The notes under the pieces: generated by a model | Seen by the model: only the letters and a program-made list of their open reading frames with translations | What the model was told of the DNA's origin: nothing | Databases searched by the model: none | Translations under genes and position numbers: made by a program | DNA from: a bacterium | Lineage (GTDB): Bacteria > CG2-30-53-67 > CG2-30-70-394 | DNA length: 19,424 bases | Reading direction: 5' to 3' | Assembly (NCBI GenBank): GCA_024278555.1 | Contig: JAJRSX010000139.1 | Coordinates: forward strand, 1-19,424 | Shown: in pieces, positions 13,411-17,317 of the stretch | Position numbering within the stretch: position 1 is the stretch's first letter | Layout: each line of letters opens with the position of its first letter

Positions 13411-13875
13411 ATGGCCGAGGCTAGACGCCTGTTTGCGCCACGCGAGATCGTGGGGATCCTTGGGATCACCCACCGGCAGCTCTCGCATTGGGCGAAGAGC
13501 GGCCTGGTGGTCCCAGGCGCGCACACCCGCGGCGGCCACGCCCGCTACACCTTCCAGGACCTCGTCGCCCTGGCGACGGTGAAGAGGCTCCTGGATAGCG
13601 GCGTGCCTCTGCAGCGGGTGCGGAGGTCGGTGGGGGCGCTCCGCCGCCTCCTGCCCACCGTCCGCCGACCCTTGGTGGAGCTCACCCTGGTGGCGAGCGA
13701 GTCCGTGGTCTTGGTCATCTACGAAGAGACCGCCTTCGAGGCCCTCACCGGCCAGCAGTGGATCATCGACGTCGCCGCCCTGGCGCGCGACGTGGCCCGA
13801 TACCAACGCCGTCGCGGCCCCGACCCCGAGGCCGCGGCAGAGGAGAAACCCCACAGGAGCGCCTCGGGCATGTGA
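13411..13875 (+). CDS. MerR-family helix-turn-helix protein, first gene of the parA operon
   Basis: The 154-residue product has a MerR-type winged helix-turn-helix at residues 5-75: FAPREIVGILGITHRQLSHW, a GGHARYTFQDL wing and a second helix pair, VKRLLDSGVPLQRVRRSVGA. The rest is not a metal-binding MerR effector domain and has no Cys pair. It is a short beta-rich region, LVELTLVASESVVLVIYEET, followed by FEALTGQQWIIDVAALARDV and a basic, Glu-rich tail. GGAG lies nine bases before ATG 13411. The stop is 36 bases before the ParA-CBM48 gene. It probably either autoregulates the operon or acts as the DNA- or cargo-linked partner of the ParA ATPase; HTH proteins of this small type often pair with ParA proteins. 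Which role applies is open. Confidence 0.85.
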   Translation: MAEARRLFAPREIVGILGITHRQLSHWAKSGLVVPGAHTRGGHARYTFQDLVALATVKRLLDSGVPLQRVRRSVGALRRLLPTVRRPLVELTLVASESVVLVIYEETAFEALTGQQWIIDVAALARDVARYQRRRGPDPEAAAEEKPHRSASGM

Positions 13876-13911
13876 TCTTTTGCCGCGCGGCGCGGAAAGG
13901 GAGGTGGTGCG

Positions 13912-14997
13912 ATGGACGTCTGGACAGTGGCCAACCAGAAGGGCGGATGCGGCAAGACCACCACCGCGGTGCACCTCGCCGCCTGCTTCGCCGAGGCGGA
14001 CCGGCGTACCCTCCTCGTGGACCTCGACCCCCAGGGCCACGCCGGCCTCGCCCTCGGGATCGCGGCCGAGCGCGACGGCAGCTACGAGGCGCTCACCGGC
14101 CGCGGCGAGGCGACCGGCCTCACCCTCGCCACCGAGGTGGAGGGGGTGTCGCTCCTGGCCGGCTCCCTGTCGCTGGCGGCGGTGGAGCAGGAGCTCGGCG
14201 GTGAGGGAGGGCGCGAGCGCCGCCTGGCCGACACCCTCGCGACGGTCGCGGGGGACTACGACGAGGCGGTCATCGACTGCCCGCCGAGCCTCGGCCTGCT
14301 CACCGTCAACGGACTGTGGGCGGCGGACCGGGTGGTGGTGCCGGTGGAGCCGGGGCGCTTTGCCATCGACGGCCTGGCGCGCCTCGGCGAGACCGTCGCC
14401 CTGGTGGAGGCGTCCGCCGGCCGCGCCATCGCCCGCGACGTCCTGCTCACCCTCTTCGACCGGCGCACCCGCTGTGCCCGGCGGGGAGAGGGGGCGGTGG
14501 CCGAGGCGGCGGTGGGGCGGCTGCTCGATGCCCGGGTCCGCCCCTGCACCCGCCTGCGGGACGCCGCCTGCGCCGGGGTGCCGGTGACCCGCCTCGACCG
14601 GCGCTCCAACGCCGCCCAGGACTACCGGGCGGTGGCCGAGGAGCTCCTCGGCCGGCGGGCCGCCGATCGGGTCGAGCACCGGGAGGAGGTACCCTTCAAC
14701 CCCCTGCCGATCGGGCCGATCTACGGCCCCATCCCGATCCAGGGGGGCGTCCTCATCCGCGTCGCCGGCCCCGCCCGGCAGGTGCAGGTGGCCGGGAGCT
14801 TCAACGGCTGGGAGCCGGACCGCGACGTGGTCACCCGGCGCGAGGCCGACGGCACCTGGGAGAAGGTCGTCTACCTCGACCCGGGGAGCTACGAATACCG
14901 CCTGGTGGTCGACGGCGAGTGGCAGCCGGACCCGGCGAACGAGGCTCGCGTCCCCAACCCCCTCGGCGGCGACAACTCCGAGCTGCATGTCGGGTGA
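13912..14997 (+). CDS. ParA-family ATPase fused to a CBM48/AMPK-beta-type glycogen-binding domain
   Basis: Residues 1-255 are a ParA/Soj ATPase: deviant Walker A KGGCGKTT (signature Lys10, Lys15), LLVDLDPQGHA (Walker A') and VIDCPPSLGLLT (Walker B, Asp122). The C-terminal ParA region follows, including the NAAQDYRAVAEELL helix. After a Pro-rich linker (about 260-275), residues 278-360 form an early-set beta sandwich of the CBM48/AMPK1-CBM type: VQVAGSFNGWEPDRD, GTWEKVVYLDPGSYEYRLVV, DGEW and NSELHV. The glycogen-contacting residues of AMPK beta (Trp, Lys, Trp, Asn) correspond to W300, R330, W337 and N355, so the site looks competent. ParA proteins form ATP-dependent DNA-bound gradients that move cargo; here the cargo domain appears built in. 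A strong ribosome site, GGGAGGTGG, precedes the ATG. The next gene starts three bases after the stop. Carbohydrate binding and granule positioning are inference. Confidence 0.9.
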   Translation: MDVWTVANQKGGCGKTTTAVHLAACFAEADRRTLLVDLDPQGHAGLALGIAAERDGSYEALTGRGEATGLTLATEVEGVSLLAGSLSLAAVEQELGGEGGRERRLADTLATVAGDYDEAVIDCPPSLGLLTVNGLWAADRVVVPVEPGRFAIDGLARLGETVALVEASAGRAIARDVLLTLFDRRTRCARRGEGAVAEAAVGRLLDARVRPCTRLRDAACAGVPVTRLDRRSNAAQDYRAVAEELLGRRAADRVEHREEVPFNPLPIGPIYGPIPIQGGVLIRVAGPARQVQVAGSFNGWEPDRDVVTRREADGTWEKVVYLDPGSYEYRLVVDGEWQPDPANEARVPNPLGGDNSELHVG

Positions 14998-15000
14998 GGC

Positions 15001-15813
15001 GTGGCCTCGCAGCCGCCCACCGCCCCGGAGGCGAGCCGCCTCGCCCGCCTCGCCCCGCTGCTCCTCTCGGGGGCGGGCGGCGCCGGGGAGCCGGCGCCGC
15101 CACGGAGAGGCGCCGCCGGCGATCGCGCACCGCCGGCGCCGCGGCCGGCCCAGGGGGCGCCGCGTCTCCTCGCCGTGGGCCACCCCACCGACCCCCTGGT
15201 CACCACCCTTCTCGCCACCCGCCTCGCCCTCGCCCTGGGCGAGCGCGGCGTGGCGGTGCGCCTGGTGGACTCCGCCGGCGCCCCGTGGTTCCGCGACGCG
15301 GTGGTCGCCGAGGCCGACCCCCTCCCCACCCTCACCCCGGGGGCGCCGGTGCCCGCCGAGGGGTGGGGGGAGGTGGTGGTGGTCGCCCTGCCCGCGGGCT
15401 CTCTCCACCCCTACCTCACCCGCGGCGGCGGCAGCGGGATCGAGTTGATCGTCGCGGTGGGGGAGGGGACGGCGGAGCTCGGCCACGCCTATGCCCGTCT
15501 GCGCGAGGCGTCGCGGTGGCTCTCCGGCGGCCGCCTCGGCATCTGCCCCCTCGCCGCGACCGTGGTAGGGGCGCGCACCACCTTCCACCGCCTCGCCCGC
15601 GCCTGCCGGACCCTCCTGCACACGGAGGTGGTGAGCGACGGCTACCTGCCGGCCACCGCCACCGCGCTGCGCCGTGGCGCCGCGGGCGGCAGCCCCGAAG
15701 CGGTGGCGATCGCCGAGTCGATCACCCGCCTCGCCGCCCTCCTGATCACCGACGGGCCGCCACCGGAGCGGCCCACGGCCACCACCCTCACCACCCTCCT
15801 GCAACCCCTCTGA
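15001..15813 (+). CDS. ParA/MinD-like protein without a Walker A motif
   Basis: This 270-residue product is second to the ParA-CBM48 gene in a tight array. Residues about 55-105 read RLLAVGHPTDPLVTTLLATR...GERGVAVRLVDSAG. The pattern mirrors the first strand, P-loop, helix and second strand of ParA/MinD/FlhG proteins, but GHPTDPLVTT stands where KGGxGKTT should be. Both nucleotide-binding lysines are absent. Later strands (VVVVALPAGSLHPYL, IELIVAVGEG and LGICPLAATVVGARTTFHRL) continue the fold. The N-terminal 50 residues are Pro/Ala-rich and probably disordered. It is likely an inactive ATPase-fold partner or dimerisation mate. The start is the GTG at 15001, with GGGTGAGG just before it overlapping the end of the previous gene. 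Homology to ParA is my reading of the pattern and needs a structure-based test. Confidence 0.7.
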   Translation: MASQPPTAPEASRLARLAPLLLSGAGGAGEPAPPRRGAAGDRAPPAPRPAQGAPRLLAVGHPTDPLVTTLLATRLALALGERGVAVRLVDSAGAPWFRDAVVAEADPLPTLTPGAPVPAEGWGEVVVVALPAGSLHPYLTRGGGSGIELIVAVGEGTAELGHAYARLREASRWLSGGRLGICPLAATVVGARTTFHRLARACRTLLHTEVVSDGYLPATATALRRGAAGGSPEAVAIAESITRLAALLITDGPPPERPTATTLTTLLQPL

Positions 15814-15827
15814 CCGGAGTTCCCGCC

Positions 15828-16364
15828 ATGGCCGATCCCCTCCCCCGTATCGAGATCGCCCCCTTCGGTGACGCCGCGACCCTGCGCGCCGCCGTGGGCA
15901 GCGCCGTCGACCAGCTCCGGCCGCCGGCGACCCTGCTGGATGCCGCCTTCGAGGTGTGCGGCCACGGCGCGGTCGTGGTCCTGGCGGTGGAGGGGGACGG
16001 GCGCCTCTGCCTCTGCCTCCCCTACCGGGGGGGTGAGGCGGTGCGTGTCGAGCGGGTCGTGGTGGCGGCGCGCACCGCCGCCAACTTCCTCCCGTGGATC
16101 CGCCGCATCTTCCCGGACGCCGCCATTGGCGAGCAGCCGCCGCGGCCGGTGGTGGTGGCCGAGCAACTGGAGGCGGAGGTGGTGGAGCTGGTGGCGCGGG
16201 TCGCCGGCGGGAGCTGCTACACCTACCTTCCGGTGCGGGTGGCGGGCGAACGGGTCGTCCTCCTGCGCCCCGCCGGCGCCCCCCTGCCCCCCTTTCGCAC
16301 CGGCCCGGCCGACGCCTGGGACCACCTCAGCGGCGAGGAGGAGCGGGTTCTTTTTGGCGGCTGA
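15828..16364 (+). CDS. Unrecognised protein, last gene of the parA-CBM48 operon
   Basis: The 178-residue product belongs to no family I recognise. It seems to be a compact alpha/beta protein. Alternating strands include AVVVLAVEGDGRLCLCLPY, VRVERVVVAA and YTYLPVRVAGERVVLLRP, and one helix reads ANFLPWIRRIF. It has no signal peptide or membrane segment. It begins 14 bases after the preceding stop with GGAG eight bases before ATG 15828, so it is almost certainly co-transcribed with the ParA-CBM48 and ParA-like genes. By position it is a candidate adaptor or cargo factor of that system. Its stop codon lies in the loop of a hairpin (16348-16380). Confidence 0.72.
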   Translation: MADPLPRIEIAPFGDAATLRAAVGSAVDQLRPPATLLDAAFEVCGHGAVVVLAVEGDGRLCLCLPYRGGEAVRVERVVVAARTAANFLPWIRRIFPDAAIGEQPPRPVVVAEQLEAEVVELVARVAGGSCYTYLPVRVAGERVVLLRPAGAPLPPFRTGPADAWDHLSGEEERVLFGG

Positions 16365-16430: not shown

Positions 16431-17225
16431 CTAGGCGCGCCGGCGGGCGGCGGCGAGGCCGATCAACGCCAGGGCCACCAGCCCCGCCGAGGCGGGCTCG
16501 GGGACCGGGAGGACCTCGAAGTAGCTGTCGAGGGTCGCGGTGTCGCCGGCCGAGAGGTCGAAGATGTTGACGATGCCGATGGAGGACATCACCGCCGGCC
16601 CCGGCTGGGTGACGCCGGGCATGCCGAAGGAGGGGGGGATGACAAAGGAGGCGAAGCCGCCCGCGGCGCCGGAGTAGGTGAGGCCGTTGCCCGGGGGGAT
16701 CATCGTCTGCACCCCGGTGCCGTCGATCCGGGCCTCATAGATCGCGCCGCCTCCCATGGGTGCCAAGAGGTGGGCGGAACCGTCGTTATTCGTGTCGACC
16801 ACCGTGCCGCCGAGGGTGCCGCCCATGCGCGAGGAGGGGGTGATCGGCGGGAAGACCGGCGCCCCGGCGGCCACGCCGAAGACCTGGTCGGTCGAGTTGG
16901 TGTTGGTGATCACCGTATGGAGGGTGACGAAGGGGTCGAGGTTGGTGGTGAGCATCCAGGTGAAGTCCCAGACGTCCATCATGGTCATGGTGCCCGAGAT
17001 CGTCTTCGTCCCGTCCGGGTTGATGGTCGTTTGCATGGTGGCGCTCATGCCGGCCAATGCGTTGAGCGTGGCCAGGTCCATGGCGTCGAAGGATTGGCTC
17101 GTCCCATCCATCCCGGTGACCGTGATGCCCATCGACGGTCCGGTGATCATGACCGCCCCGGCGGGCGCGGCAACGAGAATCGGTAGCGCGATAGCGGCAA
17201 ACCAGCGTGTGAACCTTCTTTTCAT
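16431..17225 (-). CDS. PEP-CTERM domain exported protein
   Basis: This 264-residue secreted protein has an N-terminal signal peptide (MKRRFTRWFAAIALPILVAA, cleavage near PAGA) and a C-terminal PEP-CTERM tail: VPEPASAG, a hydrophobic helix (LVALALIGLAAA) and a basic end RRRA. Exosortase (XrtA/EpsH type) recognises this tail and removes it on the way to the surface or exopolysaccharide matrix. The body is rich in Thr, Gly and Met and has only a Ser/Thr-rich beta character, so no enzymatic role is apparent. ATG 17225 is chosen over an upstream in-frame start at 17312 because the signal peptide begins there and GGGGGA precedes it by six bases. The upstream frame also crosses the sigma-54 promoter. 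No exosortase or exopolysaccharide gene is in the window. Confidence 0.9.
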   Translation of the reverse strand: MKRRFTRWFAAIALPILVAAPAGAVMITGPSMGITVTGMDGTSQSFDAMDLATLNALAGMSATMQTTINPDGTKTISGTMTMMDVWDFTWMLTTNLDPFVTLHTVITNTNSTDQVFGVAAGAPVFPPITPSSRMGGTLGGTVVDTNNDGSAHLLAPMGGGAIYEARIDGTGVQTMIPPGNGLTYSGAAGGFASFVIPPSFGMPGVTQPGPAVMSSIGIVNIFDLSAGDTATLDSYFEVLPVPEPASAGLVALALIGLAAARRRA

Positions 17226-17300
17226 GGTGTCCCCCGGACAGGTGTGCGGTTGTGGTCGTTCCCCCGGTGGCGCCAAACACGCCGCGGATGCGGGGGTGGA

Positions 17301-17317
17301 TGCAAATCTCATGCCAG
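17301..17317 (-). promoter_or_regulatory. Sigma-54 (RpoN) -24/-12 promoter of the PEP-CTERM gene
   Basis: Minus-strand CTGGCATGAGATTTGCA fits the consensus YTGGCACGrNNNTTGCW at every position but one (T for C after TGGCA), with correct GG-GC spacing. Transcription should start about 12 bases beyond the GC, leaving a leader of about 65 bases. Sigma-54 control of PEP-CTERM genes through PrsK/PrsR-type two-component systems is known in other proteobacteria. Confidence 0.82.

Follow-up and report, generated by a model that had tools for sequence, protein, structure and literature searches.

ParA-type ATPases place plasmids, chromosomes, carboxysomes, chemoreceptors and flagella. To our knowledge storage polysaccharides are not among their cargoes, and we know of no alpha-glucan cargo for the McdAB, ParC, FlhG, PpfA and VirC1 systems. 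ParB-type tails by themselves stimulate ParA (PMC12462528), and the partners of other positioning ATPases have been proposed to use the same tail scheme (PMC10241942). Here we analyzed a stretch of 19,424 nt of bacterial DNA (the window), in which four tightly packed genes on the forward strand (13411–16364) encode a MerR-type helix-turn-helix (HTH) protein, a ParA ATPase fused to a carbohydrate-binding module (ParA–CBM48), a Walker-less ParA-like protein and a small orphan protein. The initial annotation had proposed that this locus either positions glycogen granules or encodes a glycogen-gated ATPase, and knew of no described system of this make-up. In agreement with the latter, we found no published description of a ParA–CBM48 system in the open-access literature.

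The four-gene operon and its distribution

The first gene (13411..13875, + strand) encodes a MerR_1-type HTH protein of 154 aa (Pfam MerR_1, E 9e-15). It is followed by the fusion gene (13912–14997, + strand), by gene 3 (15001..15813, + strand; 270 aa, GTG start) and by gene 4 (15828..16364, + strand; 178 aa). We recovered all four ORFs in the order and with the gaps of 36, 3 and 14 bases given initially; the single promoter claimed with them was not confirmed, as the promoter scan found no sigma-70-like promoter. The gene spacing nevertheless fits an operon. Homologues of gene 1 with 44–56% identity lie directly upstream of the fusion at four other loci (L045, L046, L052 and L055) and also directly upstream of a ParA without CBM in L076, and an HTH ORF occupies the same place in 8 of 9 Nitrospirota operons. 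The HTH gene product probably regulates the operon.

Full-length homologues of the fusion, with about 32–42% identity, were observed across many phyla, including Gammaproteobacteria, Deltaproteobacteria/Myxococcota, Omnitrophota (at least 147 of 285 genomes), Auribacterota, Planctomycetota, Gemmatimonadota, Rokubacteria and Nitrospirota. The occurrence of full-length fusions in so many unrelated genomes rejects the possibility that the fusion is an isolated assembly artefact. The four-gene order recurs in several groups as well, so that the HTH, Walker-less and orphan genes do co-occur with the fusion there. Because the same domain architecture and gene order are found again in many distantly related genomes, the system is beyond chance. 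The composition of the locus varies between groups: Omnitrophota fusion loci usually have neither gene 3 nor gene 4, and in one Nitrospirota group (L076, L288, L289 and L293) the four-gene operon is present without a CBM48 on the ParA. For one of these four, L076, the genome keeps GlgA although the ParA has no CBM.

The ATPase domain of the fusion

The N-terminal part of the fusion (13912..14661, + strand) is a Soj-like ParA ATPase domain with the deviant Walker A motif KGGCGKT. It matches Pfam AAA_31 above the cut-off (E 1e-42) and the solved ParA 8ray (E 1e-45), and the relatives of solved structure nearest to it are Soj/ParA proteins. The ParA/MinD pattern KGGxxGK[ST] is present with both lysines, as are Walker A' and B. 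The two signature lysines, which had been reported as kept, are indeed there: K10 and K15 are invariant in an alignment of 22 fusion homologues, together with G11, G12, G14, D37, D39, D117 and D122. In a tree the fusion ATPases stand apart from 79 Soj-type ParAs (support 100/98), and this sequence comparison supports a distinct ParA subfamily. As the genome of the window has a separate parA–parB pair elsewhere, the fusion is an additional ParA. Nucleoid binding by the fusion is not assured, because the position of the Soj DNA-contacting arginine is R/K in only 19 of the 22 homologues.

Gene 3 and gene 4 as putative partners

Neither gene 3 nor gene 4 matches a Pfam family, and instead of the ParB/Srx domain of a ParABS partner they have predicted ParA-like and PD-(D/E)XK folds. 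Gene 3 has no Walker A, but a profile–profile comparison (hhalign) relates it to the ParA part of the fusion (E 5.5e-7, probability 92%), and its AlphaFold model (mean pLDDT 64) has FlhG as best match (Z 18.1, rmsd 3.1 over 190 residues). Near its N-terminus lies the conserved peptide SRLARLAPLLLSGA (15034..15075, + strand), which we propose to activate the ATPase. Thus, gene 3 joins a pseudo-ParA fold to a conserved peptide at the N-terminus that is similar to the tail with which ParB activates ParA, a combination that is new here. We built a matrix of 14 columns from such tails at 18 loci. When 733 ORFs were ranked with this matrix, the top 13 included six genes that immediately follow an Omnitrophota fusion; when 769 ORFs in the vicinity of ordinary ParAs were ranked, the top 15 included four ParB N-termini. 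Of the Nitrospirota partners, 8 of 9 scored 20–36. The partner tail is thus found again in different phyla and is similar to ParB tails, and it is predicted to stimulate the ATPase. The usual Omnitrophota partner is small, contains a hydrophobic segment that probably anchors it in the membrane, and is encoded directly upstream of the fusion. This protein was not picked up by the matrix; by eye only, its sequence IYEHLAKIYLD was regarded as the same kind of tail.

For gene 4, sequence alone was silent in Pfam and gave in the PDB only a match to NucS at E 0.63, so the fold assignment comes from the AlphaFold model (pLDDT 83, pTM 0.78). This model matches NucS 2vld (Z 11.0, rmsd 2.4 over 107 residues) and 5gke (Z 10.9; Foldseek E 7e-4), which is consistent with a PD-(D/E)XK fold. 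The catalytic D…E-x-K signature was not found: all 13 family sequences are without E-x-K, and gene 4 of the window also has no catalytic D. Its C-terminal motif LSGEEERVLFGG (16326..16361, + strand; consensus [LI][ST]xxExxxF) is conserved in the alignment, and E171 is nearly invariant in the family. The gene 4 family profile gave matches at 17 loci, all belonging to the ParA–CBM48-type system; about three weak matches in Nitrospirota (L296–L298) do not belong to it. As modelled, gene 4 is a degenerate NucS/EndoMS-like PD-(D/E)XK fold protein without the catalytic E-x-K, which is likewise new here.

The carbohydrate-binding module

The C-terminal part of the fusion (14743..14997, + strand) matches Pfam AMPK1_CBM (E 3e-10; 40.6 bits compared to a curated cut-off of 26.8) and CBM_48 (E 6e-5, also above cut-off), and it aligns with AMPK beta-2 chains (E 6e-7). 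Its best matches are alpha-glucan binders. Taken together with the ATPase domain, this points to a ParA/MinD-type spatial-organization system whose ATPase would itself be attached to a granule of alpha-glucan (glycogen) through the AMPK-type CBM48 at its C-terminus, a reading to which we give a probability of roughly 45%. The linker between ParA and CBM can be as short as a few tens of residues or as long as several hundred, and the CBM is always last, which suits a tether. The same domain could also use glycogen as a signal: the CBM48 would report the alpha-glucan status, as in AMPK, and gate an ATPase that organizes another target, such as the pseudo-nuclease complex, a DNA locus or a membrane site. 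The CBM is of the AMPK-beta rather than the branching-enzyme type, the operon survives the absence of the CBM in one group, as expected of add-on sensing, and the HTH and pseudo-nuclease suggest a DNA-linked target. However, linkers of several hundred residues are poorly suited to allosteric gating, and the Omnitrophota operon, usually without pseudo-ParA and pseudo-nuclease, adjoins alpha-glucan enzymes, so that we consider gating by glycogen somewhat unlikely.

CBM48-like domains can also act as protein contacts. For the fusion this would mean a module that no longer binds sugar, attached to a ParA-type organizer of unrelated cargo, and the CBM-free operons would fit such a loss. We therefore compared the sugar-contact residues of AMPK beta, which we take to be W100, K126, W133 and N150. 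Alignment to AMPK beta chains bore out the counterparts proposed initially (W300, R330, W337 and N355). In a set of 84 non-redundant fusion CBMs, all 79 sequences that cover W300 and all 78 that cover W337 have W there, the position of R330 is R or K in 72 of 84, and N355 is kept in 40 and replaced by D in 38. The substitution of D for N in half of the homologues is in line with a protein-contact module. The other columns average a 54% majority residue, and invariant stacking tryptophans with a mostly kept basic contact in an otherwise variable domain are hard to account for unless sugar is bound. These alignments support a strongly conserved carbohydrate-binding site, and although two carrier genomes without strong glycogen genes (see below) speak for a protein module, we regard it as unlikely.

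Glycogen genes and genomic neighbourhood

Returning to the proposed tethering of the ATPase to glycogen, we searched the carrier genomes for glycogen metabolism. Strong GlgA was found in 23 of 30 carriers, most carriers encode glycogen synthase and/or GT35 phosphorylase, and the genome of the window has GlgA and two GT35 phosphorylase homologues. However, two operon-bearing genomes (G061 and G070, of L046 and L055) show neither a strong GlgA nor any phosphorylase or GH13, so that the absence of glycogen metabolism, named initially as an argument against the proposal, applies in part. No glycogen gene lies in the window's own 19 kb, and none was noticed beside the operon in class relatives. In Omnitrophota a GH57 gene is located within about 6 kb of the operon in 20 of 40 sampled genomes, where about 1 is expected (the genomes are not phylogenetically independent), and in L062 GH77 (MalQ) and glycogen phosphorylase are also next door. 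The fusion associates with phosphorylase in Omnitrophota (odds ratio 3.4, p 8e-6, without correction for kinship). Genome size, completeness and kinship confound both this association and the one with GlgA.

In one Gemmatimonadota branch the neighbours of the operon look like exopolysaccharide genes. By inspection, the fusion at L038, L060 and L061 adjoins O-antigen-ligase, glycosyltransferase and WecA-like genes, and a DUF212 gene (Pfam) lies directly upstream in L038 and L059. Along with a weak BcsQ similarity of the fusion in Pfam and the apparent membrane anchor of the usual Omnitrophota partner, this context would fit a system that positions the machinery for an exopolysaccharide or an envelope glucan, in the manner of BcsQ and cellulose synthase. 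Such a role is quite improbable in our view: the fusion reaches only 56 bits against the BcsQ NCBIfam equivalog cut-off of 157.85, its best CBM matches are alpha-glucan binders, and comparable neighbours were noticed neither in the window nor at most other loci. A mobile-element or defence module, such as the remnant of a plasmid partition locus or an anti-phage system, suggested by a ParA next to a nuclease-like fold and by the score of the HTH with the MADS protein model mad1, is already disfavoured and highly improbable, as PADLOC gave only this match and a weak P-loop match for the system genes and no other specific defence model, no full-length fusion was found among the viral-contig matches listed, and the operon is common across whole clades.

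Proposed mechanism

In the preferred granule-tethering model, the ATP-bound ParA part would dimerise and bind the nucleoid non-specifically, as in Soj/McdA, and the CBM48 on its linker of very variable length would hold an alpha-glucan particle, as the conserved contact residues suggest. The short ParB-type N-terminal peptide of the partner, the conservation of which is observed, should trigger ATP hydrolysis and release. In the lineage of the window this partner would be the pseudo-ParA encoded with the pseudo-nuclease, a possible DNA-binding protein; for Omnitrophota, the small upstream protein would usually take this role. Glycogen stores would as a result be spaced, equally partitioned or anchored with respect to the nucleoid or membrane. 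That many lineages actively position or partition their glycogen stores in this way, by a dedicated ParA-type ATPase with its own glycogen-binding module, activated by the ParB-like tail of a pseudo-ParA or membrane-anchored partner, we put forward as a tentative proposal. Of the original suggestion, a real conserved system and a kept sugar site stand, and a GH57 linkage in Omnitrophota is added to them, but glycogen is not the universal cargo, since operons without CBM48 and two operon genomes without strong GlgA, phosphorylase or GH13 exist.

If true, this would be a granule segregation system for a storage polysaccharide, for which we found no described precedent in the open-access literature. 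The conserved multi-phylum operon, which is very common in Omnitrophota, makes it directly testable whether the location and inheritance of glycogen are under bacterial control. It also adds a new partner class, a pseudo-ParA with a ParB-like tail, and besides this a pseudo-nuclease subunit. Even if the cargo is not glycogen, the system is informative on how ParA systems evolve new cargo.

Comparison with known systems

Chromosomal ParABS (Soj/Spo0J) shares with this locus the Soj-type ATPase domain and an adjacent partner with a basic/aliphatic N-terminal tail (compare QALGRGLGSLIPE in the ParB of the window genome and KRLGRGLEEISHIFLS in the partner at L033). In contrast to ParABS, the partner here has no ParB/Srx or parS-binding domain, its body being of pseudo-ParA or membrane type, and the ATPase carries a CBM48 in a genome with its own parAB elsewhere. 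Gene 4 shares its predicted fold with the C-terminal nuclease domain of NucS/EndoMS, but without E-x-K and with the N-terminal NucS domain missing. BcsQ, the cellulose synthase organizer, is also a ParA-like protein tied to a polysaccharide system, whereas it has no CBM and belongs to a different operon. The glycogen-binding domain of AMPK beta represents the closest solved relatives of the fusion CBM, with the W, K/R, W and N/D contacts kept; here it is fused to a ParA ATPase in bacteria, with no kinase. Finally, McdAB and the ParC, FlhG, PpfA and VirC1 systems likewise combine a dedicated ParA-type ATPase with an adjacent, diverse N-terminal-tail partner; unlike in these and other ParA/MinD cargo systems, a carbohydrate-binding module is located on the ATPase itself, where it would read the cargo or a signal.

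The four-gene operon in the window

We re-read the open reading frames (ORFs) and searched them with Pfam, and the four-gene cluster described in the initial annotation turned out to be correct in coordinates and content. The co-directional genes encode a MerR-type HTH protein (gene 1, 13411-13875; MerR_1, E 9e-15), the ParA-CBM48 fusion (gene 2, 13912-14997; AAA_31, AMPK1_CBM and CBM_48 above cut-off), a pseudo-ParA (gene 3, 15001-15813) and a pseudo-nuclease (gene 4, 15828-16364), the last two without a Pfam match, and are separated in this order by 36, 3 and 14 bases. The single promoter is the sole detail of that observation without support, as a sigma-70 scan for the operon found none. 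A PEP-CTERM protein gene (16431-17312, minus strand) is convergent with the operon, and a terminator-like hairpin (minus strand, 16410-16379) lies between them.

Distribution of the fusion and of the operon

A search for ParA-CBM48 fusions across genomes revealed many distant carriers, so that the fusion is not confined to one genome. We found it at full length in 5 genomes of the same class (a sixth copy is truncated by a contig end) and in 2 more distant genomes; in G001, a 94% complete genome of the same genus, only an ordinary ParA and no full-length fusion was found. When 84,980 species were scanned with an alignment, at least 21 further full-length fusions came to light (loci L045-L064 and L066), and the matches listed include Gammaproteobacteria (Thiogranum), Deltaproteobacteria, Myxococcales, Auribacter, Omnitrophota, Planctomycetota, Gemmatimonadales and Rokubacteria. 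For Omnitrophota, 147 of 285 sampled genomes scored below about 1e-119, with the profile spanned end to end among the matches listed; the score distribution is bimodal, with 197 of the 285 genomes on its upper side. In a maximum-likelihood tree of ParA domains, 79 ordinary Soj-type ParAs formed one branch (100/98), outside which the fusions and two CBM-less relatives were placed, and the fusion label required 3 changes compared to 25.8 in shuffles. The window genome (3.06 Mb in 211 contigs, listed as 100% complete with 0.68% contamination, the window being the entire contig C116) carries a separate parA-parB pair of the ordinary type, on contig C127. From the recurrence across taxa, the tree and this separate pair it follows that the fusion ParA is a distinct ParA subfamily.

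The operon is conserved as well. The full order HTH, ParA, pseudo-ParA, pseudo-nuclease occurs in the window and in L045, L046, L052, L055 and L076. Nine Nitrospirota operons have the HTH gene upstream except L288, where no HTH ORF was called; the gene 3 tail (see below) went unrecognised in L294. Genes 2 to 4 are retained in class relatives, and the upstream gene, where visible, codes for an NtrC-type regulator. Most sampled Omnitrophota have a different partner set, in which a gene for a protein of ~190 residues lies immediately 5' of the fusion (33 of 46 loci); this protein has a highly conserved start of the IYEHLAKIYLD type, then lysines and a hydrophobic stretch, and judged by eye only it may represent the same scheme, with the tail on a membrane anchor. 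L048, L053, L054 and many of L235-L274 conserve two proteins just 3' of the Omnitrophota fusion, one small and DUF4870-like, the other lysine-rich with a part resembling EF-Tu domain 2 (IGxVTHYFPHVxAAVIKLK). An exported, perhaps outer-membrane, protein is conserved upstream in the Omnitrophota cluster (L247 2331-3932 and relatives, 30 of 46 loci).

Putative partner proteins

Gene 3 had been labelled a Walker-less ParA-like protein, which agrees with our data: Walker A is gone in the window protein, profile-profile alignment relates it to the fusion ParA (probability 92%, E 5.5e-7), and its predicted structure (mean pLDDT 64, tail lower) matches MinD-like FlhG (Z 18.1, rmsd 3.1 over 190 residues). 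Across phyla its conserved part is a short N-terminal peptide, the tail: RGLEEISHIFLS (L033), RLARISHHFLS (L052), RNLREISHFFLS (L047), RGLADVSHVFLS (L057) and RLARLAPLLLS (window). We built a matrix of 14 columns from 18 tails, excluding test-set sequences. Among 733 ORFs near Omnitrophota fusions, the top 2 and altogether 6 of the top 13 matches were the gene immediately downstream of the fusion; among 769 ORFs near ordinary ParAs, the best match was the L076 partner and 4 of the top 15 were ParB N-termini of the LGRGLDALL type. By this comparison gene 3 is a pseudo-ParA with a ParB-like tail. Published work shows that the ParB tail, whose motif of aliphatic and basic residues spans positions 11-19 in M. 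xanthus and includes R13, suffices to stimulate ParA (PMC12462528), and partners of other ParA/MinD positioning ATPases have been shown or suggested to act likewise through a charged N-terminal tail (PMC10241942). On the grounds of this likeness and of the published tail action, gene 3 is most likely an ATPase-stimulating partner.

The predicted structure of gene 4 (pLDDT 83, pTM 0.78) is good given its six-sequence alignment. It best matches NucS/EndoMS (2vld, Z 11.0, 2.4 A over 107; 5gke, Z 10.9; Foldseek E 7e-4), ahead of restriction and Shedu nucleases, and catalytic E-x-K was found in none of 13 family members. The model has the fold of a pseudo-nuclease, from which we can only guess that it might bind DNA. 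The gene 4 profile gave 17 matches among ORFs of the loci studied, all inside the operon and including loci outside its building set, and 9 genuine matches in 295 Nitrospirota genomes, each adjoining a ParA of this system. Gene 4 is therefore part of the system.

Carbohydrate module and linker

Among solved structures, AMPK beta subunits come closest to the fusion CBM (E 6e-7), followed by pullulanase, glucan phosphatases and GlgB, and the four residues previously proposed as sugar contacts (W300, R330, W337 and N355) do align with the AMPK contact residues. In 84 non-redundant CBMs of the subfamily, in which columns average 54% majority residue, W300 is tryptophan in 79 of 79 sequences covering it and W337 in 78 of 78; 72 have R or K at position 330, and position 355 is N in 40 and D in 38. 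The sugar-binding site is preserved. ParA and CBM are joined by a linker whose length ranges from tens to several hundred residues; it contains acidic repeats in L292 and L295 and is rich in Ala/Lys in L294. Such an appearance would be expected of a flexible tether to carbohydrate. Two class relatives also encode stand-alone CBM48 proteins of ~95 aa, relatives of the fusion CBM (L041 7006-7284; L042 2073-2363).

Association with alpha-glucan metabolism

GH57 genes occur in 22 of 46 Omnitrophota fusion neighbourhoods, and a whole-genome search placed one within ~6 kb of the fusion in 20 of 40 sampled Omnitrophota, compared to ~1 expected by chance from about two GH57 genes per genome. Of Omnitrophota genomes with the fusion 77% contain phosphorylase, compared to 50% of those without it (p 8e-6), and 257 of 285 contain GlgA; all these counts are uncorrected for kinship and completeness. 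Downstream of the L062 fusion lie genes for GH77, GH57-DUF3536 and glycogen phosphorylase. The operon is linked to alpha-glucan enzymes in this one phylum, Omnitrophota. Glycogen metabolism in carriers, which the initial annotation proposed to check, was recovered in part: strong GlgA is present in 23 of 30 carrier genomes, among them the window genome (GlgA and two GT35 phosphorylase homologues; no GH13 found), but in G061 and G070, the genomes of L046 and L055, which carry the operon, we found no strong GlgA, phosphorylase or GH13.

Two further observations speak against the glucan link. In four Nitrospirota operons the ParA ends approximately where the CBM would start (L076 6001-6903, L288 4395-5279, L289 4109-5011 and L293 4564-5403; Pfam on two), and a Gemmatimonadota branch of fusions lies among likely exopolysaccharide genes. 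The CBM-less ParAs (...KFLGPILIEEIL...) provide a natural deletion for comparison. A DUF212 (divergent PAP2) gene lies directly 5' of the fusion in three loci, two of them analysed with Pfam: L038 (3807-4292), L059 (5373-5795) and L061 (5334-5807).

Proposed function and relation to known systems

We assign a probability of roughly 0.45 to a system that positions or partitions an alpha-glucan granule: the ParA part would bind the nucleoid, the gene 3 tail would activate the ATPase, CBM48 would bind the glucan, and granule placement would be the outcome. That the system senses glucan rather than positions granules we consider unlikely, and the remaining probability goes to other cargo. The initial annotation knew of no described system of this make-up, and our search of open-access papers likewise turned up no earlier account. 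The fusion system is neither ParABS nor McdAB, but it seems to work in the manner of ParA/MinD positioning systems.
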